DNA of 34,219 nt from an uncultured bacterium (GCA_903882905.1 CAIRYW010000024.1:1-34219), one strand, 5' to 3'; counted from the stretch's first letter, positions 2,728 through 34,219 are shown. Notes: a model not told the origin generated them from the sequence alone. A program made the numbers and translations.

Positions 2728-4173
2728 TTAATTACTCTCTGAAAGGGATTTTATTACATCATCAAGTCTTGAGTTATTTTCACATCTTTTATTAAGAACT
2801 GAAGCTAAACTAGCACTTATTGTATCGTGTAGTATTTTACCAACTGCATTTTCAGTAAAGTATATTTTAAAGTAAGAAATAGGTTTAATTAGCATTTTTT
2901 CTTTAACATCAGGTTTAGTGTTACAAGACACATCAATATTATTTATTTCTTCTCTCGCATTATCTGCGAAGTATTCTGTAGTTTGATTTTGTTCGTAATA
3001 ATAAGAAGAACCATTTAAAACCATGTTAGTAAAAATTGGAATATTCACTTGGGAAACTAGTTCACCTATAAACTCCTTAAGGCTATTCTTTTGATTATAA
3101 TATTCAAGAATAAAAGAATTCTTAAGACCTTTTCCATCATCCTTTAATAGATTTAATTGCGTCAAGTAGTTTTGTTTTTGTACTTGATTAAAGTGTTCCT
3201 GATTAATTATTTTTAATGCAGCTTCGTATCCGTAACTTTTTATTGCAATGCCAACTAAGTATCCAATTAAAGGTTGATTAGATTCTGACCCTAAGTAACC
3301 AATTTTTATAGTTTTAATTGCTTCATTCATTGCTTCTGTGTTTTTACCTTCTTTTAGTAGGTGTAATGCGTTTAATGAAGCAATTAGACCCGCGTTTCTC
3401 CAATCATTATATTTTGGAAGAATTGTCTCTGATGAAATTTTAGATAAATCACTATCTTGTGGATTATATAGAAATGATTTATTAGACGCGTTTGAAAACA
3501 TTTCTATTGTCTTCTGATTTTTTGAAATTATATCGTTTACCAGACTATCATCCCAAACGTTTCCAGAAGTTGCTGTTACGATAGACCTTAAGGTCTTCAT
3601 GTTTTCAGTAGAGGTAGAAATATATATGGAATTTGTTATTTGATCTAAATCGTAATATGCGTTAGCAGAATCTGGTATATTAGGGTTTTCAATTTGTAAT
3701 CCAGTTTCATTCACAGTTGGTATATCTTTAGCAAATAGATTCAGTATCCCAGGGATAGTTATAAATATAACGAATAATACATATAACACCCCAAGTATCA
3801 TTAAAGGAACTTTAAATAATTTCCTCATACTCTTATTTTTATAAAGCTTCAGTTGTCTATAAATTATAAAATTAAGAAATATAATAATTAAAATTATCAC
3901 TAGCATCTCTAGTCTAATTTCTGGAGGACTAGTATAGACACTGAGATATCCTGGAGTTATCCATAGTAAAAAAACTGATACGATAATAGGTGCCCATTGT
4001 TTTTTTAAAATAATTCCGACAAAACCTATAATAAATCCAACAGATGCTAGTATAGTAGAAAATGAAACTACATTTAATCCTATTATGGGAACCAATCCTG
4101 TTATTGCAGCAATAACATCAAAAGTGACATATAAAAGAATAATTGACGACAAAATCCAATATGATTTTTTCAT
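2728..4173 (-). CDS. Five-helix membrane protein with a large soluble C-terminal domain
   Basis: A 481-residue protein. The first ~150 residues contain about five hydrophobic helices (near 6-27, 33-57, 62-80, 88-108 and 122-147) joined by short loops. The remaining ~330 residues are soluble, predicted mainly helical, with many Asn and Lys and a few scattered Cys near the end. I do not recognise the family, and no catalytic motif is visible. The soluble part probably faces outside or the cytoplasm as one domain; topology cannot be decided by eye. The gene is monocistronic, with an extended -10 (TGA-TACAAT) 7 nt before the ATG and a terminator after it. Confidence 0.75.
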   Translation of the reverse strand: MKKSYWILSSIILLYVTFDVIAAITGLVPIIGLNVVSFSTILASVGFIIGFVGIILKKQWAPIIVSVFLLWITPGYLSVYTSPPEIRLEMLVIILIIIFLNFIIYRQLKLYKNKSMRKLFKVPLMILGVLYVLFVIFITIPGILNLFAKDIPTVNETGLQIENPNIPDSANAYYDLDQITNSIYISTSTENMKTLRSIVTATSGNVWDDSLVNDIISKNQKTIEMFSNASNKSFLYNPQDSDLSKISSETILPKYNDWRNAGLIASLNALHLLKEGKNTEAMNEAIKTIKIGYLGSESNQPLIGYLVGIAIKSYGYEAALKIINQEHFNQVQKQNYLTQLNLLKDDGKGLKNSFILEYYNQKNSLKEFIGELVSQVNIPIFTNMVLNGSSYYYEQNQTTEYFADNAREEINNIDVSCNTKPDVKEKMLIKPISYFKIYFTENAVGKILHDTISASLASVLNKRCENNSRLDDVIKSLSESN

Positions 4174-4319: not shown

Positions 4320-4453
4320 GTCACAACTCAAAAACTTTTCAGTCAAAAGTTTTTGGTCGCGGCCCCGACTCGCAATTTTTCCTACTGGAAAAATTATGCT
4401 CTGTCTTTCAATTCTCCCACGAAAGCAAATAAATTTGCTTTCTCATCTCCACC
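4320..4453 (-). repeat. Dispersed hairpin element, copy B (degenerate), ending in an inverted copy of the tmRNA 3' end
   Basis: GTCACA (4320-4325), an AT hairpin AAAAACTTTT/AAAAGTTTTT, then GGTCGCGGCCCCGACTCGC match the family seen at 241. The GCTCTGTCTTT segment matches GCTCCGTCTTT of copy A. The plus strand ends with CATCTCCACC (4444-4453), an exact 10-bp inverted copy of the tmRNA 3' end (4493-4502). Confidence 0.6.
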
Positions 4454-12003: not shown

Positions 12004-14583
12004 TCAATTCCACAAATCCCAAACTTTTCCAGCAACGTTTTGTGGAGTACCTTCCAAAGGAAAGTGGTGAAGATTTATAAAAGGTAAAGAGTTTGCCTCA
12101 ATAATTCCCCAGTGTTTGCCAGTCGGGTCCGAAGTTGGGTCTTCAACGATAAAATCAAAACCAACAATAGGTACGTTGAGCAAATCTCCGGCTTTTTTTA
12201 ATTCCTCTAAAATTTTAGGATGAGTTTCATTTATCATTTCTTTCGAATAACCTCCGTAAGAAATTCCAATTTTTTCTGAAAGGTCTATAGTTTTGCCTTT
12301 GGGTAGAATAGAATTTAGATTGAATCCCTGTCTTTCTAGAAAAACTTCAATTTTTTTATCTGTCGCAACATCTTTCACTTTTGGATTTTTGTTTTTATTT
12401 TTTTCTATTATAAGATCTGTAATATTTTTTATTCCATCGCCAGTGATTCTTGGTGGGTCACCTCGAAGAATCCCAACAATTTCTCCTCCAACATAAGTCC
12501 CTCTGTAAACACTTCCCAAAAGATGCTCTTCAATTACAACGAAGTGGCACAAATCTTGGGCTACACTAAAACCATGTTTAAGATCTTCTCTTGAGTAAAG
12601 ATAAGTTGAAGTATGTCTGCCACGAGAACCAACTTCAGGTTTACAAATAACAGGTTTTCTTAATTTATTAAATATTTCTAGAGCTTTTTCCCAATTAGTT
12701 GCACTTCCACCATTTGGAGTAGCAATATTTTTTTCCAGCAACTTTTTTTTGAGAATGGCTTTGTCATCAATCCAAGCATATGCAATAGAATTCATTTTTG
12801 GAGGAATTGGCAAACTTTCAAAATAAAACCATTCGTTATCTATTTTAGCTCTGTATTGTTCTATTGGTTTACCCCAGATGACAAATTGTTCCATCTTGAT
12901 TCCTCTTTTTATTGCCTCGTGCCAAATCACACTAGCACGTTCAGTATGAGCAAGAATTGGATCAGTGTTCATTCTTAACATTCCAGTTAGTCTAAAAAAA
13001 TAGATATAAGGTGTAAGGATCGTCTTTGCTATTTTAAAGGTTAGCCAGTTTTCGATGTATGCAGCTGGGCGTAGGATCGGAGATAGTAAGACACTTAAGC
13101 TTTGCATAAAAAAAACAACATTGTGGTTTACAGGATTATTACCACAATATTGGCATTGTTTTTTCTTTATTTCTTTTTCTGTTTGAGTCATTAAGGTTTT
13201 TCTTGGTGTTGGCAAATCTTCAATCTGCTCGTATTTACCTGAAACAATTTCATAAAGTTCATACATCATAGCATCTAAACTTTCTCCAATTCTAATTTCA
13301 GATAGTGATTTTTCAATAAGTTTGTTTGCTTCACTGGGGTTTTTTGTATGGACAAAAAAATCAGCAAGTGTCGCTTGGGTGTTAGTTGTCCCATTTGAAA
13401 TTCCTGTAATTATAGCTTCACCTGAAAAGATATCAGTCTTGACGTTTTCGAATTCTTTTTTTAATTCAGGAAAAACTTTGCCCCAAGCAATCTTCATATC
13501 TCCCAAATATTGAATTTGAGAAAAGCCCCCTCCAAGAGTCAGTCCGTAATGGAAGGCAAGTATTGAATAACAAAGTGCCATCGAAGGCATAAGGGAATAA
13601 TTGTCTAAACCCTCTTTTAAAGATTCCGTATCTAAAGAGATTTTCACTTTTTCATCTAAAGTTTCAAGATTTTTTCCATTTAGAAAAAGTGGCTTTCTTT
13701 TGTTCTCTTTTTCATCTATATACCAAAATAAAAAGGAACCAGTTTTTTGTTTTGTATTATGAGCCCCAGTAATACCATCAAAGTTTTTTAGATATAAATT
13801 TCTGCGTTCTTCGTTAAAAAAAATTTCTAAAAGTACGTCTTTTTTTTCAAGGCTATCTAGTAAAATATTTTTTACTAGTTCCTCAGCTTCAAGGTAGAGT
13901 AGGTCTCCGCGAAGGTTTCCAAATATTTCATTCCACCAAATATCATTCAAAATTGTCAGTTGCTCGCAAAATCTTTTTTGTTCCCAAATATTTTTTTGCT
14001 CTAATGTTTTCTTAATAAAGTCTGAAAATTTTTTCTTTTTAATTTTTGAAATATCTTTTTCAAAAAAATAATCTTTAAGTTTTAAGAAATCACTTTTTGA
14101 AATTGCAGGAATTCCATAGAGAGGTCTTTGCCTCCACTTCAAAGAAATCATATGTATTTTTTGAAGTTCTAAATCATTATCATGAAAAAAAATCGAACGA
14201 GGGAATGAGGAGTTAGTGGGGGATACAGCACCGACAGTTAAAACAATTTGTGTTTTCGGTCTGTATAAAATTTTGTTGCTTGATTTTGCAATTGCTAGAT
14301 TGGAAAAGAATGGATGACAGAGAAGTCCGTGATGATCGGCTGTAGAAACAAAACCTGTTTGGTTTATAGACTCGAGGGCTTTTTTTGTTTTTTCTGCCCC
14401 CAAAGTGTTCTTGACAGTATCGAAAAAAACTTTGCTAAAGTCTTTTTTATTTCTGATATTTGACCCCTGTGGATAGCTATTATTTATATATTCTGACCAA
14501 CTTTTTTCTTTATTTTTTTCATAAAAATCCTTAAATATAGGTTTTTTTTCGAAAATTATTTTTTTAGCCTCATTTAATTTCAC
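12004..14583 (-). CDS. Large two-part protein with C-terminal ATP-grasp ligase domain
   Basis: An 859-residue protein starting with GTG. The last ~280 residues are an ATP-grasp domain of the cyanophycin-synthetase/glutathione-synthetase type: CKPEVGSRGRHTS binds ATP phosphates, VIEEHLLGSVYRGTYVGGEIVG and ITGDGIKNITDLI form the central block, and VGFDFIVEDP...IIEANSLPFINLH is the metal-binding end. Such enzymes join a carboxylate to an amine or thiol using ATP. The first ~550 residues are not recognisable to me. They include ADHHGLLCHPFF, which looks catalytic or metal-binding, a GNLRGDLLYLEAEEL segment, and CQYCG. Substrates are unknown. A TATAAT lies 7 nt upstream of the GTG, with TTCACA 16 bp before it. 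Confidence 0.7.
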   Translation of the reverse strand: MKLNEAKKIIFEKKPIFKDFYEKNKEKSWSEYINNSYPQGSNIRNKKDFSKVFFDTVKNTLGAEKTKKALESINQTGFVSTADHHGLLCHPFFSNLAIAKSSNKILYRPKTQIVLTVGAVSPTNSSFPRSIFFHDNDLELQKIHMISLKWRQRPLYGIPAISKSDFLKLKDYFFEKDISKIKKKKFSDFIKKTLEQKNIWEQKRFCEQLTILNDIWWNEIFGNLRGDLLYLEAEELVKNILLDSLEKKDVLLEIFFNEERRNLYLKNFDGITGAHNTKQKTGSFLFWYIDEKENKRKPLFLNGKNLETLDEKVKISLDTESLKEGLDNYSLMPSMALCYSILAFHYGLTLGGGFSQIQYLGDMKIAWGKVFPELKKEFENVKTDIFSGEAIITGISNGTTNTQATLADFFVHTKNPSEANKLIEKSLSEIRIGESLDAMMYELYEIVSGKYEQIEDLPTPRKTLMTQTEKEIKKKQCQYCGNNPVNHNVVFFMQSLSVLLSPILRPAAYIENWLTFKIAKTILTPYIYFFRLTGMLRMNTDPILAHTERASVIWHEAIKRGIKMEQFVIWGKPIEQYRAKIDNEWFYFESLPIPPKMNSIAYAWIDDKAILKKKLLEKNIATPNGGSATNWEKALEIFNKLRKPVICKPEVGSRGRHTSTYLYSREDLKHGFSVAQDLCHFVVIEEHLLGSVYRGTYVGGEIVGILRGDPPRITGDGIKNITDLIIEKNKNKNPKVKDVATDKKIEVFLERQGFNLNSILPKGKTIDLSEKIGISYGGYSKEMINETHPKILEELKKAGDLLNVPIVGFDFIVEDPTSDPTGKHWGIIEANSLPFINLHHFPLEGTPQNVAGKVWDLWN

Positions 14584-19935: not shown

Positions 19936-21039
19936 ATGAAGAAGGTACATATATACATTCTTTTGGCAGTCGTTGCCGTAATTGTTCTAGTTATTTTTTT
20001 TGTACCTAATTTAGTTTTTACTGAAACAACTCCAACAATTGCGACAACAACAAGTATAAAGGAAATAGCAGTAGTTCCTGTCCCAACTTTAGATAAAGTC
20101 TTATACGACCAAAAAATGTTGGCTTTAGCAAACATTACAGTTGCGACAAGTACAGCAACCACGACTAAAAAAAATATCGCTTCCACAACTTCTACTACAA
20201 CAAAAATAGTAAAAAATCTTTGGCCTGTAAAAACTGTTTATCCAAATGCAGGGGCTCTTTTGCCATTCAATCGAATTGTTGCTTACTACGGAAACTTTTA
20301 TTCAACTAAGATGGGTGTACTTGGAGAATATCCCCCAAAGCAGATGCTTCAGATGCTTTTGGATGAAGTTAATAAGTGGAAATTGGCCGATCCAACTACT
20401 CCTGTAATTCCAGCTATTGATTATATAGCGGTCTCTGCACAAGGGTCAGCGGGTTTTGATAACATGTATAGATCTAGAATGCCAAAAGATCAAATTGAAA
20501 AAGCTATCGATTTAGCAAAACAGGTTAATGGAATAGTTTTTCTTGATATTCAAGTCGGAAAAAGTAGTGTTCAAGCAGAGGTCCCATTGCTAAAAGATTA
20601 TTTAGCTTTACCTAATGTTCATCTTGCTTTGGATCCAGAATTTTCTATGAGTACTTCTGGCAAAAAACCTGGCACGATAATTGGAACAATGGATGCATCG
20701 GATATAAATTTTGCGGCAGATTTTTTAGCAAAAATTGTTCGTGATAATAATTTGCCACCAAAAATTTTAGTAGTTCACAGATTTACTGGACACATGGTTA
20801 CAAATTCTCAAAATATTACACCACTACCTGAAGTACAAATTGTTATGGATATGGATGGATGGGGAGGCAAACCAAATAAGACCAAAGCCTACAAAGATGT
20901 TATTTATAGTGAGCCGGTTCAATTTACTGGCCTGAAACTTTTCTACAAAAACGATCTTCTTTCGCCAAGTACAGGAATGCTCAGTACTTCACAAGTATTA
21001 AATCTCAAACCAATTCCAAGTTATATTCAGTATCAGTAA
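19936..21039 (+). CDS. Secreted or membrane-anchored protein, putative TIM-barrel
   Basis: A 367-residue protein with an N-terminal hydrophobic anchor (~6-25), then a Thr/Ser/Ala/Lys-rich linker (TSTATTTKK-type, ~35-85) and a ~270-residue globular domain. The domain has alternating strand-helix segments such as IVAYYGN, GIVFLDIQVG, VHLALDPEF and ILVVHRFTGH, with acidic residues at strand ends, which suggests a glycosidase-like TIM barrel. The family is not identified and no catalytic pair can be named. It may act on cell-wall or host glycans. Same operon as the 82-residue protein. Confidence 0.6.
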   Translation: MKKVHIYILLAVVAVIVLVIFFVPNLVFTETTPTIATTTSIKEIAVVPVPTLDKVLYDQKMLALANITVATSTATTTKKNIASTTSTTTKIVKNLWPVKTVYPNAGALLPFNRIVAYYGNFYSTKMGVLGEYPPKQMLQMLLDEVNKWKLADPTTPVIPAIDYIAVSAQGSAGFDNMYRSRMPKDQIEKAIDLAKQVNGIVFLDIQVGKSSVQAEVPLLKDYLALPNVHLALDPEFSMSTSGKKPGTIIGTMDASDINFAADFLAKIVRDNNLPPKILVVHRFTGHMVTNSQNITPLPEVQIVMDMDGWGGKPNKTKAYKDVIYSEPVQFTGLKLFYKNDLLSPSTGMLSTSQVLNLKPIPSYIQYQ

Positions 21040-25022: not shown

Positions 25023-26354
25023 ATGGATTACAAAGAATATTTTAAAGGAAAAAAAATAACGATAATGGGCTTAGGGCTTCTCGGGAGGGGACTAGGGGAT
25101 GCTATTTTTTTGGCTGAGTGCGGGGCAGAATTAATTATCACTGATTTGCGAGAAAAAAAAGTTTTAAAACCTAGTTTAGAAAAGCTCAAAAAATTTAAAA
25201 ATATTAAATACACCTTAGGTAAACACGATCTCAAAGATTTTGAGTTTAGAGATTTTATATTGAAAGCGGCAGGGATTCCACTCGATTCTGAATTTATAAT
25301 TCATGCAAGGAAAAATAAAATACCGATTGAGATGGATGCGTCACTATTTTCAAGAATTGCTCAAGGTGTAATAACGATCGGTATTACCGGCACAAGAGGA
25401 AAAACAACTGTCACTTCTTTAATTTACAAAATTCTTTCGGATGCTTATAAGAAAAAATCACAGAAAGTTTATCTTGCAGGAAATATTCGAGACACAGCTA
25501 CTTTGCCTTTGATTAAAAAAGTTAAAAAGGGAGATATTGTTGTTATGGAGCTCGATAGCTGGCAACTTCAAGGTTTCGGTGACTCAAAAATCTCTCCGCA
25601 TATTTCTGTTTTTACAAATTTAATGGAAGATCATCTAAATTATTACAAAGGTAGTCTTGAAAAATATCTAGAAGATAAAGCTCAGATTTTTTTGCACCAG
25701 AAACAAAATGATTATTTAATTACAGGTGAAAAAGTTGCACATTTAATCACTGCAAAATATCACGATAAATTAAATAATTTACTTTTGACTGCAAACTCGT
25801 CTGAAATTCCTTTAGATTGGAAATTACCATTAATAGGTGAACATAATAAAGAAAATATCGCTTTAGCTTTGAAGGTAGCAAGAATTATGAAAATTTCAGA
25901 CAGTATAAGTAAAAAATCTATTGAAAATTTTAAAAGCGTAGAAGGAAGATTGCAGAAGATAAAATCTTACAAAGGTATAACAATTTGGAATGACAATAAT
26001 TCTACAACACCAGAGGCTGCGATTGCGGCTCTCAATTCTTTTCCACAAAATAAAAATATTGTTTTAATTGCAGGAGGAAATGATAAAAATATTGATACGG
26101 CAAAACTTGTTATAGAAATTTCTAAGACTTGTAAAGCGATAGTTTTGATTCCTGGAACGGGAACAGACAGATTAAAAAATATTGAAAACTCCGTTAAAGT
26201 TAAGAATTTAAAAGAAGCTGTAAAAAAAGCTTTGTCATTTTGTACTAAAGGTGACGTCTTGTTGTTTAGTCCAGCTTTTTCTTCATTCAGTCAATTTAAG
26301 AATGAATACGAAAGAAATGATATGTTTATGAAATTAATTAAATCTCTCAAATGA
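25023..26354 (+). CDS. murD: UDP-N-acetylmuramoyl-L-alanine--D-glutamate ligase MurD
   Basis: A 443-residue Mur ligase adding D-Glu to UDP-MurNAc-L-Ala in peptidoglycan synthesis. An N-terminal Rossmann part (ITIMGLGLLGRGLG) is followed by the ATP loop GITGTRGKTT (~120-129; most MurD have GTNGKTT), VMELDSWQLQGF, NLMEDHLNYY and the C-terminal WNDNNSTTPEAAIAAL block. All domains are present and the length is normal. The stop overlaps the next start (ATGA), so the next gene is translationally coupled. Confidence 0.93.
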   Translation: MDYKEYFKGKKITIMGLGLLGRGLGDAIFLAECGAELIITDLREKKVLKPSLEKLKKFKNIKYTLGKHDLKDFEFRDFILKAAGIPLDSEFIIHARKNKIPIEMDASLFSRIAQGVITIGITGTRGKTTVTSLIYKILSDAYKKKSQKVYLAGNIRDTATLPLIKKVKKGDIVVMELDSWQLQGFGDSKISPHISVFTNLMEDHLNYYKGSLEKYLEDKAQIFLHQKQNDYLITGEKVAHLITAKYHDKLNNLLLTANSSEIPLDWKLPLIGEHNKENIALALKVARIMKISDSISKKSIENFKSVEGRLQKIKSYKGITIWNDNNSTTPEAAIAALNSFPQNKNIVLIAGGNDKNIDTAKLVIEISKTCKAIVLIPGTGTDRLKNIENSVKVKNLKEAVKKALSFCTKGDVLLFSPAFSSFSQFKNEYERNDMFMKLIKSLK

Positions 26355-26881
26355 TAGAAATAATAATTAGTACAATGCGTCACGGAGCATTTTCAAGAAA
26401 AGTTGGAAATGAAGTTTTTAATATTTATAAAATCCTCACAAACGATGTTGGTTTAATTGATTTAAAAGATTTACCCAAAGAAGCTTTTTTGGCTGATGCA
26501 TACGATGATCGTCCAAGGGCCATAAAAGAATTTTCAGATAGATTATTAAAAGCTGATGGGGTAGTGGTTGTCATTCCCGAATACAATTCTGGTGTCCCTG
26601 GTGTGATGAAACATTTTATTGATTTATGGAAATTTCCAGAAACCTTTAATAGAAAATTTACAATTATTTCTGTTTCTTCCGGAGCATTTGGAGGAATTCG
26701 TGCTTCAGGTCATCTAGGGGAAATTCTTTTAAATCGCGGGGGTTTAATTTTTCCGCAAAAAATTTTAATACCAAACGTTGAGTCTCTTTTCAATGAAAAA
26801 GATGAAATGATTTCTGAGAAAGACAAAATCCGTCTCGAAAATCACAGCAAAGCATTTATAGAGTTTGTAGGAAAAAAATAA
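26351..26881 (+). CDS. NADPH-dependent FMN reductase-like flavoprotein
   Basis: A 176-residue flavodoxin-fold protein. VVVIPEYNSGVPGVMKHFIDL is the hallmark of the NADPH-dependent FMN reductase family (PF03358-type), and SVSSGAFGG contributes to the flavin phosphate site. Such enzymes reduce FMN or quinones. It overlaps murD by 4 bp and precedes murC by 29 bp, an unusual guest between two cell-wall ligases. The reason is not evident. Confidence 0.85.
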   Translation: MIEIIISTMRHGAFSRKVGNEVFNIYKILTNDVGLIDLKDLPKEAFLADAYDDRPRAIKEFSDRLLKADGVVVVIPEYNSGVPGVMKHFIDLWKFPETFNRKFTIISVSSGAFGGIRASGHLGEILLNRGGLIFPQKILIPNVESLFNEKDEMISEKDKIRLENHSKAFIEFVGKK

Positions 26882-26910
26882 CTTCTTTGTGATATTCTAT
26901 GGTCACAAAT

Positions 26911-28203
26911 ATGGAAGATTTTAATACAGTCAAAAAGGTCTATTTTCTGGGAATTGGTGGTATAGGTGTTTCAGCCCTGGCTAGCATGTTTTTGCATGAA
27001 AATAAGGCCGTTTTTGGCTCAGATACGGCTTCTAGCGAGATAATAGAGGAACTCAGGAAGACGGGGGCAAATGTGTTTATAGGCCAAGATTTGGAACATA
27101 TTCCAGATGATACTGACTTGGTAATATACTCAATTGCTTTAGATATTTTTGCACCAGAATTTATGAAGGAAGTAAGAGAGAAAATAAAAAATGTTATTTC
27201 ATATCCAGAAGCGCTTTCAATTATTTCAAAAAATAAATTTACAATCGCGATTTCAGGAACCCACGGAAAGACCACCACAACTGCAATGGTTGCAAAAATT
27301 TTAATTGATGCTGGAATGGATCCGACGGTTATCGTTGGATCAATTTTAAAAGATGTAAAAAGTAATTTTATTGCAGGTAAGAGTAAATATTTAGTAGTTG
27401 AAGCCTGCGAATACTGTAGATCTTTTCTTAAAATAAATCCGACAGTTGTTGGAATTACAACAATTGATGATGATCATTTAGATTATTACAAAGATAGTGC
27501 CGATATAATTCTCGCTTTCAAAGAATTTGCATTAAAGACTCCAAAAGAGGGAGCTGTAGTTGGAAATTTAAATGATGAAAAAATAAAAGAAGCTGTAAAT
27601 GTTTCTGTCTCAAAAATAATTAACTCTGAAGATTTTTTTGATATTAATCTTCCTCTTAAAGTTCCTGGAGTTCATATAAAAAAAGATGCATCTGTTGCTT
27701 TGGCAATTGCTGATTTTATTGGTATTCCAAAAGATGTCGCATTAAAATCCATTAAAGAATTTTCTGGCACATGGAGAAGATTTGAATATAAAGGAGAAAC
27801 TTCAAAAGGAACAATTGTTTACGACGATTATGGACACCATCCAGCGGAAATAAAAGCGACAATCCAAGGTACTAGAGAAGCTTTTCCTGATTCAAAAATT
27901 ATTGTTATTTTCCAACCTCATCTATTTTCCCGAACAAAATCATTACTGTCTGATTTTCAAAAAGCATTTGATAATGCTGACAAAACAATTTTACTTCCAA
28001 TTTATCCTGCTCGAGAAGAATTTGATCCAACAATCGCGTCTGATGACATTGTCACAGAGAATTCAAAAAATATTGAAATGGCAAAAGATTTTATAGATGC
28101 TGCCAAAAAAGCTTTTGAATATGGAAATAAAGGTGATGTAATTCTTGTAATGGGAGCAGGCGACGTTTACGAAGTTACAAATCTTCTTTTGAGTCAAAAA
28201 TAA
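26911..28203 (+). CDS. murC: UDP-N-acetylmuramate--L-alanine ligase MurC
   Basis: A 430-residue Mur ligase catalysing the first amino-acid addition in peptidoglycan precursor synthesis. VYFLGIGGIGVSALASM is the N-terminal nucleotide loop, SGTHGKTTTTAM the ATP loop, EACEYCRSFL and TTIDDDHLDYY the central metal and substrate sites, and YDDYGHHPAEIKATI the C-terminal block. An in-frame ATG at 26899 directly follows a -10-like TATTCT (26893-26898), so the ATG at 26911 fits better. With murD upstream it forms a small cell-wall operon. Confidence 0.93.
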   Translation: MEDFNTVKKVYFLGIGGIGVSALASMFLHENKAVFGSDTASSEIIEELRKTGANVFIGQDLEHIPDDTDLVIYSIALDIFAPEFMKEVREKIKNVISYPEALSIISKNKFTIAISGTHGKTTTTAMVAKILIDAGMDPTVIVGSILKDVKSNFIAGKSKYLVVEACEYCRSFLKINPTVVGITTIDDDHLDYYKDSADIILAFKEFALKTPKEGAVVGNLNDEKIKEAVNVSVSKIINSEDFFDINLPLKVPGVHIKKDASVALAIADFIGIPKDVALKSIKEFSGTWRRFEYKGETSKGTIVYDDYGHHPAEIKATIQGTREAFPDSKIIVIFQPHLFSRTKSLLSDFQKAFDNADKTILLPIYPAREEFDPTIASDDIVTENSKNIEMAKDFIDAAKKAFEYGNKGDVILVMGAGDVYEVTNLLLSQK

Positions 28204-28204
28204 A

Positions 28205-28900
28205 ATGCCAAAAATCAGTGTAATAATGCCAGTTTACAATGGTGAAAAATTTTTAAAAGACGCTATTGAAGGCGTGCTTAATCAAACATACAAAGATTTT
28301 GAATTTTTGATTCTCGATGATGGATCAACTGATAACTCATCAAAAATTGCAGAAAGTTTTTCTGATCCAAGAATTAAAATTGTTAAGTTGAATCATGGTG
28401 GAATAGTGAAAGCACTAAATGAGGGATTAAAAATTATGAGTGGGGAATACATTGTAAGAGTTGATGCTGACGATATTTCTTTACCCGAGAGATTCGAAAA
28501 GCTTTTGGATTATATGGAAAAAAATCAAGACGTTGCAGTTTGTGGTTCTAGGGCAATTTCAATAAATGAAAAAGGGGAATATATAGGTGAAATGAATTAT
28601 CCAGAAATTGAATCAGAAAAAATAAAAAAATATGCATTATTGCATAATCCATTTATTCATCCCTCCGTAATTATTTGCAAAGAAGCTTTAGCGGAGGTTG
28701 GGAATTATAGAGATTTTAAGCATATAGAAGATTACGAATTATGGACTCGTGTTTTAGCAAAATTTAAAGGGCATAATTTACCAGAACCTCTTTTAAAATA
28801 CAGAATTCATCAAAACCAAATCACAAAGAAAGAAAATCTTACAATGAGATTTTACGGAATTTTTGTGAGGATTTTAGCTATTTGGAGATTAGTTTTTTAA
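28205..28900 (+). CDS. Family 2 glycosyltransferase
   Basis: A 231-residue GT-A enzyme. SVIMPVYNGEKFLKDAIEGV opens the nucleotide-binding half, LDDGSTD and RVDADD (the DxD metal site) follow, and EDYELW is the acceptor-side acidic motif. It lacks C-terminal membrane helices. It begins 1 bp after the murC stop and converges with the GT11 gene, overlapping it by 4 bp. It probably transfers a sugar during surface-glycan assembly; sugar and acceptor are unknown. Confidence 0.85.
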   Translation: MPKISVIMPVYNGEKFLKDAIEGVLNQTYKDFEFLILDDGSTDNSSKIAESFSDPRIKIVKLNHGGIVKALNEGLKIMSGEYIVRVDADDISLPERFEKLLDYMEKNQDVAVCGSRAISINEKGEYIGEMNYPEIESEKIKKYALLHNPFIHPSVIICKEALAEVGNYRDFKHIEDYELWTRVLAKFKGHNLPEPLLKYRIHQNQITKKENLTMRFYGIFVRILAIWRLVF

Positions 28901-29691
28901 ATTTTAATCCAATCTTTTGGAATAATATTTTTTGAATCCTCTTTTGGATTTGCAAACCATTTTTCTGGTGCGATCACAATTTTTTCTTTATTAGGATTCA
29001 GCCACGCACCCCACCAAGAAAAAGATGAGTTTGCAATAATGTTATGAGTACACTTACTCATTAAAATTATTTCCTCAAAGTCTTGTATTTTTGGATCTGA
29101 AACAAAATGCATTACAGATGGTAATTTTAGATTTTCTCTTACCCATTCAATATCATCAGAAAAAACAAAAATTTCTAACGCAGTATTTATTTTTTTTAAT
29201 AGTATCTCGTAAGCTTTTTTATAATAATTTAAACTGCAAACTCCGTGATAGGCATTTGTCTTTGGTTCTTTTACATAATCGCCCCTACGAATGTGAAGTG
29301 ATACAGATGTAGGTATATTTTCGATTTTATTTTTCCACTCACTCGATTCAATTCCTAGTGGATCTTTAAGAGTAAATTCTTTTCTTATTATTTCTTCGAT
29401 ATCTTTAAAATATTTTTCACTTTGGAAGTACTCTTCAATTTTAAAATCAAACCGTCTTTTTATTTTATTACAAAATACTTGGAATTTATCTTGTTTGTCA
29501 GAAAATTGTGCTTTAGTCTCAATATTAAAATTATTCAGTTTAAAATTTCTGGCCGTATTAATATTAGCTTTTTTGCCTTTAAAAAAAGAAACATCAAAAA
29601 CAATCTTTCTTCCAGAAATCTCTAGTTTTCTTCCGTAGGCATATTGGAACATTTGATTCCCCAGACCACCTTGAATTTTAATTGTTATCAT
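28897..29691 (-). CDS. Family 11 glycosyltransferase (alpha-1,2-fucosyltransferase-like)
   Basis: A 264-residue protein. IQGGLGNQMFQYAYG at the N-terminus, HIRRGDYV (133-140, the fucosyltransferase motif binding GDP-fucose) and NSSFSWWGAWLN near the C-terminus are GT11 hallmarks. Known members add fucose alpha-1,2 to galactose, making the H antigen. No membrane anchor is seen. It converges with the GT2 gene and is divergent from the methyltransferase-like gene at 29737. The GT6 gene lies 0.6 kb away on the same strand. Confidence 0.88.
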   Translation of the reverse strand: MITIKIQGGLGNQMFQYAYGRKLEISGRKIVFDVSFFKGKKANINTARNFKLNNFNIETKAQFSDKQDKFQVFCNKIKRRFDFKIEEYFQSEKYFKDIEEIIRKEFTLKDPLGIESSEWKNKIENIPTSVSLHIRRGDYVKEPKTNAYHGVCSLNYYKKAYEILLKKINTALEIFVFSDDIEWVRENLKLPSVMHFVSDPKIQDFEEIILMSKCTHNIIANSSFSWWGAWLNPNKEKIVIAPEKWFANPKEDSKNIIPKDWIKI

Positions 29692-29717
29692 ATATTTTTT
29701 AATTATATCATTACCTA

Positions 29718-29726
29718 TGTTAGAAT
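29718..29726 (+). promoter_or_regulatory. Extended -10 promoter, near leaderless
   Basis: TGT-TAGAAT, with the -10 at 29721-29726, lies 10 nt before the ATG at 29737. This supports that start over an upstream in-frame ATG at 29644 that overlaps the GT11 gene. Confidence 0.5.
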
Positions 29727-29736
29727 TGATTTATAT

Positions 29737-30336
29737 ATGATTAGAAATTATATTCATCAGGTCAGAGACATTTTAAGGACAATTTCTTGGCTTTTAAACG
29801 GAAAGATTGGTAATCCTCCACACATAATTAAGCAGGCGATTATTAAAAATTATGCAAAAATTTCCAATAATAAGGTCTTAGTTGAGACCGGTTCTTTTAT
29901 GGGGTATATGATATTTTCTCAATTAAGTTCATTTGATGAAATATATTCAATCGAAATTGCTGATTATTATTATCAAAGATTATTGAAAATTTTTGGAACA
30001 TCGAAAAAAGTAAAACTAGTTTTGGGTGATAGTGCAGAAAAATTACCTACAGTTTTAAAGGGTATAAAAAGAGATGTCGTATTCTGGCTTGACGGGCATT
30101 TTTCAGGTGGTATGACTGGTCAATCAAAACTTGGAGTAAGTCCAATTATTTTTGAGGTAGATCTTATCTTAAAAGATAGGCAAGACTTCAAAGATATTAT
30201 TTTAATCGATGATGCTCGTCTTTTTGGTACTGATGGTTATCCGACGATAGATCAATTGTTAGGGGTTTTTGGAGATAAATTAAAAAAATATGATTGGTTT
30301 ATTGACGACGATGTAATAAGGTTTATTCTGAAATAG
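29737..30336 (+). CDS. SAM-dependent methyltransferase-like protein
   Basis: A 199-residue class I Rossmann protein. VLVETGSFMGYM is the glycine-rich SAM loop, IYSIEIADYYY the acidic motif II binding the ribose, LGDSAEKLP motif III, and FWLDGHFSGG motif IV. The frame runs upstream to 29644, but the extra part overlaps the divergent GT11 gene and lacks a promoter. It is the only rightward gene within the leftward glycan block and converges with GT6, overlapping it by 14 bp. A glycan or lipid methyl acceptor is plausible. Confidence 0.65.
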   Translation: MIRNYIHQVRDILRTISWLLNGKIGNPPHIIKQAIIKNYAKISNNKVLVETGSFMGYMIFSQLSSFDEIYSIEIADYYYQRLLKIFGTSKKVKLVLGDSAEKLPTVLKGIKRDVVFWLDGHFSGGMTGQSKLGVSPIIFEVDLILKDRQDFKDIILIDDARLFGTDGYPTIDQLLGVFGDKLKKYDWFIDDDVIRFILK

Positions 30337-31114
30337 ATCTCAAGTATCTAGTTAGTTTGAATTTTATTGTTTCTAAAAAAAGTCTAAGGTTAAAATTTCC
30401 TCTAAGTTTTGCAAATCCTCCATAATTTCTTTTGTCTCTAATAAGTATTTTAGGTTCAAAAGGTATATTTGAATATTCTGGGTAAAGATATGAAGGCGAT
30501 AACACTTTTATGTCATTTCTTTTTGATAAATATTTATTCCAATGAGATTCGTCATGCCATTTAGCCGTGACATTATTTTTAGAGTCTTTTTTTATGCTTT
30601 CATTCATTTTCTCTATGGCCTCAATAAAAGATGATGTTTTACCTCCATTAATACCACCCGCAAAATATCTTACTCCTTCATTTTTTGCTATAAAAGCTGA
30701 AGATCTTTCATTTTCATCATAAGTAAATTCTTTTCTTTTTTTGTTAAAGTATCCAGGATGTAAGCAGGCCACAAGATTTTCTTTTTCATTGGGTAGAAAT
30801 TCTTCAGTTGTAATTGGTTTAAGGAGTAAAAGATTTGAATTAAAGAAAAAAATATAATCAAACTGTGAAAGTTTATCTTCGACACACAAAAACATCTCGT
30901 ATCTTTTGAGGGTGTTATTGGGCCAGCCAAGATTTTCTTGAAAAATTCTGTGAATATTTGGGTTTTCTTTTTCGAAATCAATATCAGCACTATCAGTAAA
31001 AACAAAGTAATGCTTTTCGGATTCTGAAATGAAATATTTTTCACAGCTTAAGTAAAAGTTTTTCCAAAAGACAGTGTATTTTCCAGTGCAAATGTAAAGA
31101 ATTGCTATTCTCAT
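30323..31114 (-). CDS. Family 6 glycosyltransferase (ABO-type alpha-1,3-Gal/GalNAc transferase)
   Basis: A 263-residue protein strongly resembling the human ABO and alpha-1,3-galactosyltransferases. ACLHPGYFNKKRKEFTYDENE, FAGGINGGKT and AKWHDESHWNKYL (WHDES at 186-190, with the catalytic Glu at 189) align to the family. Where animal enzymes have the metal-binding DxD, this one has NSN (92-94), as reported for bacterial GT6 enzymes that work without a metal. No membrane anchor is seen. The GT2 gene starts just upstream on the same strand (3-bp gap). Confidence 0.9.
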   Translation of the reverse strand: MRIAILYICTGKYTVFWKNFYLSCEKYFISESEKHYFVFTDSADIDFEKENPNIHRIFQENLGWPNNTLKRYEMFLCVEDKLSQFDYIFFFNSNLLLLKPITTEEFLPNEKENLVACLHPGYFNKKRKEFTYDENERSSAFIAKNEGVRYFAGGINGGKTSSFIEAIEKMNESIKKDSKNNVTAKWHDESHWNKYLSKRNDIKVLSPSYLYPEYSNIPFEPKILIRDKRNYGGFAKLRGNFNLRLFLETIKFKLTRYLRSISE

Positions 31115-31117
31115 TTT

Positions 31118-31888
31118 TTAGTAGAAGATCGCGTAATTAATTAGTTTCAATATTGAGATTAATGTCTTTGGGTAGCGGAAACCATATTTCAAAAGTATTT
31201 TTAGTTGGTAGTAAATTTGATTACTTTTTGTGTTTTTTGATGACATGCCTTTTCTTTTTAAATAATTTACACCAAAAATATCTAGATTTTTAAACTTTGA
31301 AATAAGCCCAATTCTGATCCAAAGATCCCAATCCTCAGTATATTTTAATTTATGGTAGAGGAATTCTTTCCCAAGTATTTTTTTTCTGAAGACGATTGAT
31401 GAATGACAAAATGGATTGCTGATCATAATATTTTTCCTTATCTTTTCATCTGTTACTAACGTGCCTAATTCTCCTATTATATTGTTATCGGTATCTATAA
31501 TTCTTGCTTTAGTTCCCACTAATCCATATTCTGGATTTCTTTCGAGAAAATTTACTTGTTCTTTTAATTTATTTATATCACTCCATGTATCATCGTCATC
31601 TATTCTGGCTATATATTTACCATTAGATATTTTTATTCCTTTGTTTAAGGATTCTACTATACCTACGTTATTTACATTTGCTAAGCTTATTATTCTGCTG
31701 TCTTTAGATTTATATGAATCTACTATTATCTGGGTTTTGTCTACAGAGCAATCATTAATTATTATAAGTTCAAAATCTGAAAATGTTTGAGATAGAACAC
31801 TTTCAATCGCTTTTGAAATAAATTTCGATCCATTAAATGTAGGTAATATTATAGAAACAAGAGAGATTGTATTTTCTTTAGTATACAT
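31118..31888 (-). CDS. Family 2 glycosyltransferase
   Basis: A 256-residue GT-A enzyme. SIILPTFNGSKFISKAIESV, INDCSVDKT, ARIDDDD (the DxD site) and EDWDLW are the canonical motifs. No membrane helices. It is the gene directly upstream of GT6 (3-bp gap) and likely co-transcribed. A TATAAT lies at plus 31899-31904, 10 nt before the ATG. Specificity cannot be read from the sequence. Confidence 0.85.
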   Translation of the reverse strand: MYTKENTISLVSIILPTFNGSKFISKAIESVLSQTFSDFELIIINDCSVDKTQIIVDSYKSKDSRIISLANVNNVGIVESLNKGIKISNGKYIARIDDDDTWSDINKLKEQVNFLERNPEYGLVGTKARIIDTDNNIIGELGTLVTDEKIRKNIMISNPFCHSSIVFRKKILGKEFLYHKLKYTEDWDLWIRIGLISKFKNLDIFGVNYLKRKGMSSKNTKSNQIYYQLKILLKYGFRYPKTLISILKLINYAIFY

Positions 31889-31898
31889 TTTTTCTAAA

Positions 31899-31904
31899 AT
31901 TATA
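31899..31904 (-). promoter_or_regulatory. -10 before the GT2/GT6 gene pair
   Basis: On the minus strand TATAAT lies 10 nt before the ATG at 31888, with a weak TTGCTA 16 bp upstream. It may start the GT2-GT6 transcript. Confidence 0.45.
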
Positions 31905-31906
31905 AA

Positions 31907-32620
31907 TCATTTTATTTTTCTAGCAAAAACATGGTAACCAAAACATAGTAATTCTGATGACCTGTTATCTTTTTTCGAATTTCTTTTTAAAATAATTAAT
32001 AGTGGGTATATAAATATTTTCGAGATGAAGCTCATTTTTGAGGTTGAATAATTATTTTCAATAGAAGGAAGTCTCCATAGTTCTTGAGCTATATATTCAA
32101 AATAGTTACCATTTGGTGTCAATTCATTAATTTCAAAATTGTACTTAGTTAGGTTATGTTCATAAAAATATTTATTAAAACTTGTTGAAAAATGATACGG
32201 AGCAAAATGAGTTAGAGAACAAAAAGGGGATGTAATTATCAGATAACCGTCTGATTTTAGGATTCTTGAGAATTCTTTAATTGCAGAAACAGGATCTGGA
32301 ATGTGTTCAAATACTTCCGTACACATTATTGCATCAAAGGAGTTGTCTGATACTGGGATTTTTGTGATATCGCTCACTATGTCTAATTTAGTATTATCCC
32401 AATTTTTAGTTTGTAAACCTTTCTTATCACCCTTACCGTCATATTGTCCAAAGTCTTGAGAAACATAATTTAAATGAGAACAAAATTTTTTGAATGGACA
32501 TTCTCCGGCTCCAGCATCTAAAATTTTCAAGCCTGCGGGGATTTTTTTTAATGTTTTTTTGATCCATAAAATACGAGTGCCCTCATTTTGTAGACCAACA
32601 TTTAATATTTTTTCTTTCAT
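31907..32620 (-). CDS. SAM-dependent methyltransferase (Methyltransf_11 type)
   Basis: A 237-residue class I methyltransferase. ILDAGAGECPF is the SAM-binding loop, SFDAIMCTEVFEHIPDP motif IV, and SRILKSDGYLIITSPF motif V-VI. The C-terminal third is basic and hydrophobic. It is common in glycan loci, where such enzymes methylate sugars or lipid carriers, but the acceptor is unknown. The next gene downstream, the GT2 gene, starts 18 bp after its stop. Confidence 0.8.
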   Translation of the reverse strand: MKEKILNVGLQNEGTRILWIKKTLKKIPAGLKILDAGAGECPFKKFCSHLNYVSQDFGQYDGKGDKKGLQTKNWDNTKLDIVSDITKIPVSDNSFDAIMCTEVFEHIPDPVSAIKEFSRILKSDGYLIITSPFCSLTHFAPYHFSTSFNKYFYEHNLTKYNFEINELTPNGNYFEYIAQELWRLPSIENNYSTSKMSFISKIFIYPLLIILKRNSKKDNRSSELLCFGYHVFARKIK

Positions 32621-32664
32621 TGTTAATTGCCTTAGATTAATTTAATAAATTCATTAAAGTATAA

Positions 32665-33423
32665 TTATCCATATTTTTTTACAAACCAGAAACATCCACA
32701 ACCATAAGTTTGCTTGTTCGCATCTTCTTTTGTGGCATTTTCAATAAAATTTATACCTTTATAGGTATTAGGAACAAGACTAAATTTTTTTAATTCAAAA
32801 CCTTCAAAATATTTAATTATTTGTTCATATGAATAAATTCTATGAGCATTAAACATAATCGTAGGGATGCCAGTAATTGGGATGACAAAAAGTAGAGTGC
32901 CTCCTATAGCTGTTACTCGTTTGAGTTCATTGATTGCTTTAAGATCTCCTTCCGGATCAATTTGGTCTCCGTAACGTCCAAGACCGATATGTTCTATCGT
33001 ATGCATACAAGAGATTGATTGAATACTATTGTTATTAAAAAAAAGCTTTGTAAGATCAGCTTTTTCGTTGGTAAGATTTGAAAGATGAAGTTCTGCTGGG
33101 CGATAATCATAAAATTTTACAGGTATAAAGGCTGAAAGTATTGTGCAGAAATGAAGAGTTGACGATATGTCTACATGAAATTGAGGATTTATTTTTTTCA
33201 CTATTCTTGCGGCCCATGCTGGATGATAAACATAATGAGTATCGAATGGGGTAAATAAAGTTTTGTCATGTAATTGAGGAAATCTATCTAAAAATGATAG
33301 GCGGAATCTCTTGTCAGATTTTTTTTTGAAAACATAAAAATCCTTTAAATAAAGCACATAAAAATAACTTGTTTTTAAAGTTCTATAGAATGGTCTAATT
33401 ATGTTTTTTATTTCTGTTTTCAT
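32665..33423 (-). CDS. DUF268-family protein (methyltransferase-like)
   Basis: A 252-residue protein. HVDISSTLHFCTILSAF and SISCMHTIEHIGLGRYGDQ followed by LKAINELKRVTAIGGTLLFVIP match DUF268, a family with a SAM-methyltransferase fold and the conserved HxxEHxGLGRYGD block. Its activity is not known. The frame is open to a TTG at 33471 inside the neighbouring gene; the ATG at 33421-33423 is preferred as it avoids that overlap. It belongs with the surface-glycan block. Confidence 0.8.
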   Translation of the reverse strand: MKTEIKNIIRPFYRTLKTSYFYVLYLKDFYVFKKKSDKRFRLSFLDRFPQLHDKTLFTPFDTHYVYHPAWAARIVKKINPQFHVDISSTLHFCTILSAFIPVKFYDYRPAELHLSNLTNEKADLTKLFFNNNSIQSISCMHTIEHIGLGRYGDQIDPEGDLKAINELKRVTAIGGTLLFVIPITGIPTIMFNAHRIYSYEQIIKYFEGFELKKFSLVPNTYKGINFIENATKEDANKQTYGCGCFWFVKKYG

Positions 33424-33439
33424 TTTTATAATATTACTC

Positions 33440-34183
33440 TTATTTATTTTCCCAAGATTTTTTGTCGACAAAAATTGTATTTATATAAGTATCGGCGTAC
33501 ACAAAATATCCATTTTCTTTCATTAACTCAATAATATTTGTAAGTTTCCCCTCAGTATTATCTTCAGTATAAGTAAGTGTTTCTACGCAAAATACTTCGG
33601 GTTTGTATTTAGTAAAATCAAACGATTTCAAAATACTGTAGTCTAACCCTTCTATATCAATGGATATAAAATTCGGAAAACTATTAACAAAATATTCTGA
33701 AATTATTTGGTTTACAGATAAGAGTTCTATTTGAACTATTTTTTTTATCTTTTGCTTATTGTTTAAAGTAAGAGCCTCAGCTTCTTTTTTTGAAAAAGTA
33801 TTTAATGAAGAAGAAGACATTAAATAAAAGTCCATCTTTTCTTTTTTTGTACCAACTCCAATGTTTAAACATATATCTTTTTTTCTTACTCGTTTGATTT
33901 TCTTGAATAGATCCCCATCTGGTTCTACATTTACACCAGTGTTTCCTTTTTTGTAAAAAAAATAAGTATTGTTAATCCATATTGGGTGATTAGCCCCTAA
34001 ATCAAGATAGGATATATTTTTTTTCCCTAATTGATCAAAAATAAAATTGATAATAAGATCTTCTCCACATTGAGCATAGGAAATTTTTCCTGAATATTTT
34101 TTCTCAATTTTTCTGTATGTTTTTGCGATTTTGTTTAACAAAAACTTTGGTGTAATTTTTTTTACAAACTTTTTTATCTTCAT
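33440..34183 (-). CDS. FkbM-family methyltransferase
   Basis: A 247-residue protein. YLDLGANHPIWINNTYFFY is the SAM loop, GVNVEPD the acidic motif II, LNIGVGTKKEKMDFY motif III, and FISIDIEGLDYSIL the FkbM signature. Family members O-methylate sugars in polyketides and surface glycans. The N-terminal ~30 residues are basic. It is the upstream-most gene of the leftward methyltransferase run visible in the window; the true operon start may lie beyond the window edge. Confidence 0.88.
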   Translation of the reverse strand: MKIKKFVKKITPKFLLNKIAKTYRKIEKKYSGKISYAQCGEDLIINFIFDQLGKKNISYLDLGANHPIWINNTYFFYKKGNTGVNVEPDGDLFKKIKRVRKKDICLNIGVGTKKEKMDFYLMSSSSLNTFSKKEAEALTLNNKQKIKKIVQIELLSVNQIISEYFVNSFPNFISIDIEGLDYSILKSFDFTKYKPEVFCVETLTYTEDNTEGKLTNIIELMKENGYFVYADTYINTIFVDKKSWENK

Positions 34184-34219
34184 AATATTTAAATTATTTT
34201 TTTTTGAAACTTAATTCCA

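Follow-up and report, generated by a model that had tools for sequence, protein, structure and literature searches.

A very small cell of the Patescibacteria (CPR), likely dependent on a host, probably makes a surface polysaccharide that bears a blood-group-A-type branch, GalNAc-alpha1,3-(Fuc-alpha1,2)-Gal, formed by a GT11 and then by a GT6 glycosyltransferase. Both genes were found in the window, a stretch of 34,219 bp that is the entire contig C24 of a 746-kb genome (92% complete; Table 1), and both would be part of a Wzx/Wzy-type surface-polysaccharide locus. The GT11 enzyme would transfer L-fucose in alpha-1,2 linkage onto the terminal beta-galactose of a lipid-linked repeat unit, and the GT6 enzyme would next add GalNAc in alpha-1,3 linkage onto that galactose, giving the branch. 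The branched unit would be flipped, and then polymerised or ligated onto the surface.

If true, a CPR GT6 clade in which each genome has GT11 would bring the making of blood-group-type glycans to reduced cells that mostly depend on a host, and would provide a concrete, testable surface structure for CPR, whose surface glycans are, to our knowledge, little known. Antigen synthesis by GT6 and GT11 in bacteria is known in Escherichia coli O86, and GT6 occurs also in Helicobacter mustelae and Bacteroides ovatus (PMC4202792, PMC3961637); no prior report of it in CPR was found in a search of the open-access literature. A count made in 2014 recorded GT6 in two cyanophages and in 36 species of bacteria, all but one of them Gram-negative (PMC3961637).

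Table 1. Features of the GT11-GT6 locus and its flank in the window
Feature	Position	Strand	Evidence
murD, locus flank	25023-26354	+	Pfam match
Flavodoxin-like FMN reductase, locus flank	26351-26881	+	Pfam match
murC, locus flank	26899-28203	+	Pfam match
GT2 glycosyltransferase, locus edge	28205-28900	+	PF00535, 4.4e-39
GT11, probable alpha-1,2-fucosyltransferase, 264 aa	28897-29691	-	PF01531, 2e-36, 126.2 bits
Probable SAM-dependent methyltransferase of class I, in the GT11-GT6 gap	29737-30336	+	Similarity to L004 gene
GT6, ABO-type alpha-1,3-GalNAc(Gal) transferase, NXN type, 263 aa	30323-31114	-	PF03414, 1.8e-34; NF041524, 4.4e-93
GT2 glycosyltransferase, directly upstream of GT6	31118-31888	-	PF00535, 1.7e-31
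SAM-dependent methyltransferase	31907-32620	-	PF08241, 1.3e-14
DUF268 protein	32665-33471	-	PF03269, 8.5e-16
FkbM-family methyltransferase	33440-34183	-	PF05050, 2.6e-18

The GT11 and GT6 genes and the predicted donor

The sequence-only reading had described a GT11 gene and an ABO-type GT6 gene lying within 0.7 kb on one strand, both with intact catalytic motifs, and expected GT6 to fall in the bacterial clade; family assignments, spacing, motifs and the position of GT6 all agreed with it. The cut-off of PF01531 for GT11 was 23.9 bits, and the GT6 protein exceeded those of PF03414 (119.4 bits; curated cut-off 25) and NCBIfam NF041524 (311 bits; cut-off 250). Both genes were on the minus strand with 631 bp between them, and a plus-strand gene occupied the gap, so that GT11 and GT6 are linked but do not form one operon or transcription unit. 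GT6 started 3 bp after the GT2 gene directly upstream, with which it is probably co-transcribed.

The GT11 motifs GGLGNQMFQYA, HIRRGDYV, FSDDIxW and NSSFSWWGAWL were present, and were conserved with the GT11 proteins of Candidatus Nomurabacteria GWD2_36_14 (L003) and Paraflavisolibacter (L004). GT11 enzymes depend critically on the first Arg of HxRRxD, and the family includes the bacterial enzymes FutC, WbwK, WbsJ and WbiQ, which make the H antigen (PMC4202792). The linkage formed by the window GT11 is likely alpha-1,2; it is uncertain from the family alone, because GT11 includes HhFT2, which has alpha-1,3-fucosyltransferase activity (PMC4202792). The nearest relative was the GT11 of G615 (51-53% identity), and the sole match in a PDB sequence search was a chance match to a ribosomal protein. 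Predicted structures were of low confidence for GT11 (mean pLDDT 54) and for GT6 (mean pLDDT 46; alignment of 4 sequences only). A GT-A fold is presumed for GT6, whose sequence matched solved structures of the family strongly.

In the GT6 protein, NSN replaced DXD (N92-S-N94), WHDE was present (W186-H187-D188-E189), and the C-terminal Lys and Arg were kept. The closest solved structures were those of B. ovatus BoGT6a (4AYJ, 1.8e-72; also 4CJB), with human ABO transferases next (about 1e-27), and the window GT6 took its place beside BoGT6a within the bacterial enzymes that have NXN. Twenty BoGT6a positions were compared (published contacts, NXN motif, catalytic stretch and donor tripeptide), and 18 of the 20 residues were kept, the exceptions being H239F and A96S, the latter at the variable position inside NXN. 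The acceptor-contact residues of BoGT6a were kept. The window enzyme, known here from its sequence, thus shares with BoGT6a the NXN motif, the donor tripeptide and conserved substrate-site residues, and differs from it in the change of H239 to F and in lying beside GT11 in a CPR genome.

The donor tripeptide of the window GT6 (equivalent to human 266-268) was AGG (Ala-Gly-Gly), as in BoGT6a. In human ABO, AGG conferred strong A activity without B activity (PMC6351642), and BoGT6a transfers GalNAc from UDP-GalNAc to 2'-fucosyllactose in a metal-independent manner, with an A-antigen-like product (PMC3961637). Because of the tripeptide and the GalNAc activity of BoGT6a, an A-like donor (GalNAc) is a better guess for the window GT6 than a B-like donor; of the A/B-like glycan first proposed, the A-like form was favoured and the B-like form was not. 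The pair WbwK (GT11) and WbnI (GT6) of E. coli O86 is similar in occurring in one bacterium, in making a blood-group-type antigen and in its fucosylated Gal acceptor (PMC4202792), but, compared by description only, WbnI transfers Gal (B type) whereas the window motif predicts GalNAc. Helicobacter mustelae BgtA is likewise a bacterial alpha-1,3-GalNAc transferase, forming the blood-group-A determinant on Fuc-alpha1,2-Gal (PMC4202792), and differs, also by description only, in its animal-associated host.

Neighbouring genes and contig C25

As in the window, murC preceded the related locus in L029. Four related loci (L027-L030) had genes 50-63% identical to the GT2 gene at the locus edge, close to their GT6. 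The gene between GT11 and GT6 had no Pfam match and begins at 29644 if a TTG start is used; the GT11/GT6 locus of Paraflavisolibacter contained a gene with 37% identity to it. The GT2 gene directly upstream of GT6 was about 42% identical to the GT2 adjoining GT6 and GT11 in L003 and in Nomurabacteria GWE2_34_25 (L002), and genes 54-61% identical to the DUF268 gene occurred in the GT6 loci L002, L003 and L028. The contig ended 36 bp past the FkbM-family methyltransferase gene. The GC content was 28.4% in 28205-34219 vs 34.2% in the remaining window; low GC is common for surface-polysaccharide islands. Elsewhere in the window, long ORFs (367-859 aa) at 841-2046, 2728-4173, 12004-14583 and 19936-21039 had no Pfam match at the thresholds used.

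Contig C25 (7,079 bp) of the same genome carried murB, a Wzy/ligase-like gene of the Wzy_C-TPR type (PF04932), gmd, fcl, and a Wzx-like flippase gene cut by the contig end. The Wzx-like protein shared 38-62% identity with its counterparts in L027, L028 and L029, of which the L029 protein has PF01943. The gene order in L028 and L029 was GT2, GT11, FkbM, GT6, further genes, Wzx, Wzy_C-TPR and murB, with an epimerase-like gene between GT2 and GT11 in L028. The broken ends of C24 and C25 fit this order, and a search for an overlap of the contig ends found none; by synteny only, the two contigs may adjoin.

Pairing of GT6 with GT11 in CPR, Bacteroidota and phages

A search of genome contigs with GT6 retrieved the two Candidatus Nomurabacteria (64% identity) and Paraflavisolibacter (50%). 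Pfam-based searches of 98 relatives and of a 380-genome phylum sample matched GT6 in the window's genome only; a GT6 protein query against 397 genomes from the order to which the window belongs found GT6 in the window's genome and four more. GT11 was present in 7/7 CPR genomes with GT6, within about 2 kb in six of them and at 31 kb in G702. Beyond the window, the gap between the two genes was 835 bp in L003, 657 bp in L028, 652 bp in L029 and 1606 bp in L030, and about 0.8 kb in L002, in which GT11 was cut by the contig end. The genes were also linked in both Bacteroidota sampled (1020 bp in L004 and 811 bp in L080). The Nomurabacteria resemble the window in being CPR with GT11 next to GT6, and differ in their ABC-type export genes, Wzm/Wzt. 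In L003, a single locus held a glycosylphosphotransferase gene, Wzm/Wzt, GT6, GT2, GT11, fcl, gmd and an epimerase gene, GalE-like in type with a score below the GalE cut-off.

Two fusions were observed among these proteins: GT6 was joined to an unnamed C-terminal part in L002 (8001-9581), and to a C-terminal GT2 domain in L030 (9570-11183).

In the order sample, GT11 occurred in 104 genomes (26%), GT6 in 5 and both in 5 (Fisher p = 0.0011, relatedness ignored). GT11 was without GT6 in 99 of the 104 genomes that had it, and GT6 was without GT11 in none, a one-way pattern that is expected if GT6 needs the product of GT11. The CPR GT6 sequences formed one group in the tree (support 81/92; weak inner forks), and the window GT6 was nearest to G702 by path and to L003 by identity (60%). 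In the GT11 tree, the window, G702, G659 and G615 grouped together (96/95), with L003 and G675 outside that group. One reading of the two trees, among other possible histories, is that the GT6 lineage has retained a partner GT11 even in genomes whose GT11 belongs to another lineage, which would point to a functional need.

Cyanophages commonly carried GT11 beside a DXD-type GT6 (e.g., L016, L017, L019, L077 and L078). Among phage records, 71 had a GT6 match and 102 had a GT11 match. In the cyanophage records examined, the two genes overlapped or were <1.5 kb apart; Bellamy, S-CAM9, B23 and P-SSM2 had GT11 beside GT6, with a 4-bp overlap in three of these, and in many ACG-2014f records the genes were about 0.8 kb apart by listed positions. 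Cyanophage GT6 differed from the window GT6 in having DXD and not NXN, in the tripeptide (QGC in 4/6 examined), and in an identity of about 30-36%. GT6 and the best-scoring GT11 were farther apart, by about 11 and 19 kb, in two phage genomes of very large size. No GT11 was found in two short faecal phage-like pieces with GT6, and a scan of viral contigs with GT6 found no relative.

Linkage of the two genes in relatives, which the sequence-only reading had named beforehand as a refutation test, was thus conserved in CPR relatives, Bacteroidota and cyanophages. The same reading had suggested glycan mimicry or host attachment. The two named Nomurabacteria relatives are GW2011 metagenome-assembled genomes, which come from aquifer samples, and the pair was also common in cyanophages; nothing in the loci pointed to animal hosts, and animal mimicry was set aside. 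The pairing of GT6 with GT11 is not tied to animal hosts. Host attachment as the role of the glycan was not supported.

Donor-sugar supply and alternative readings

On C25, the reading frame of gmd shifts at an A7 run (4447-4453) and is open elsewhere; an error in sequencing or assembly, slippage and genuine decay could each account for the frameshift. Because gmd is split by it, GDP-fucose synthesis in the window's genome is uncertain; fcl was intact (486 bits). A search of the 92%-complete genome for a GalE/Gne-type epimerase, using the L003 epimerase, matched only Gmd and Fcl, and the PF00483 nucleotidyltransferase family had no match in it (14/14 controls matched). No close gmd match was found in 5/7 GT6-bearing CPR genomes (all but the window's and L003's), which may obtain GDP-fucose by salvage or from a host, or may have gmd on missing contigs. 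Among GT6 genomes of the order sample, gmd showed no enrichment (1/5) and was therefore given no weight as support; it was associated with GT11 (44/104 GT11 genomes vs 54/293 others), a strong gmd match being absent in 60/104 GT11 genomes.

The gmd frameshift, the epimerase and PF00483 searches and the small genome (0.75 Mb) would fit a locus that is decaying or unfed, with no transfer of fucose or GalNAc unless activated sugars or precursors are supplied by a host cell. This is improbable, however: the remaining genes of the locus were open and fcl was intact, the only defect in the gmd frame was at a homopolymer, where sequencing errors are common, and the locus is interrupted by the contig end in a genome that is 92% complete, leaving room for an epimerase gene such as that of L003. 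It is possible, if rather unlikely, that both enzymes serve the same polysaccharide pathway at separate sites, with GT6 adding GalNAc or Gal in alpha-1,3 linkage to another acceptor and GT11 fucosylating elsewhere. Glycosyltransferase genes cluster in such loci whatever their order of action, GT11 was distant from GT6 in G702, and most GT6-bearing relatives were without a close gmd. Acceptor-contacting residues also changed in some CPR relatives (Thr134 to Pro in G675 and G659, and His190 to Trp in the L030 protein of G615), but the window GT6 retained the acceptor contacts of BoGT6a. The accompaniment of GT6 by GT11 in CPR, Bacteroidota and cyanophages, with GT11 so often alone, argues further for action of the two enzymes on one galactose.

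That the window GT6 transfers galactose, and not GalNAc, onto the fucosylated galactose is highly improbable. GT6 enzymes change donor with few substitutions, and those of G659 and G615 (L029 8861-9682; L030 9570-11183) carried QGA, with Ala at 268 as in the human B transferase; the window GT6 has AGG instead, like BoGT6a, and human ABO with AGG is of the A type. A B-like donor for the two QGA enzymes is a guess, since only one alanine is shared with the human B transferase. The A-type branch made by GT11 and then GT6 is therefore preferred for the window. A broader proposal, tentative and on the whole unlikely, is that a rare, patchily distributed set of CPR displays ABO-type A or B epitopes, the donor having switched between lineages (AGG in 5 genomes, QGA in 2), as a variable surface trait that would affect contact with host cells or phages.

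In G007, another genome of the order, gmd was likewise split in two pieces.
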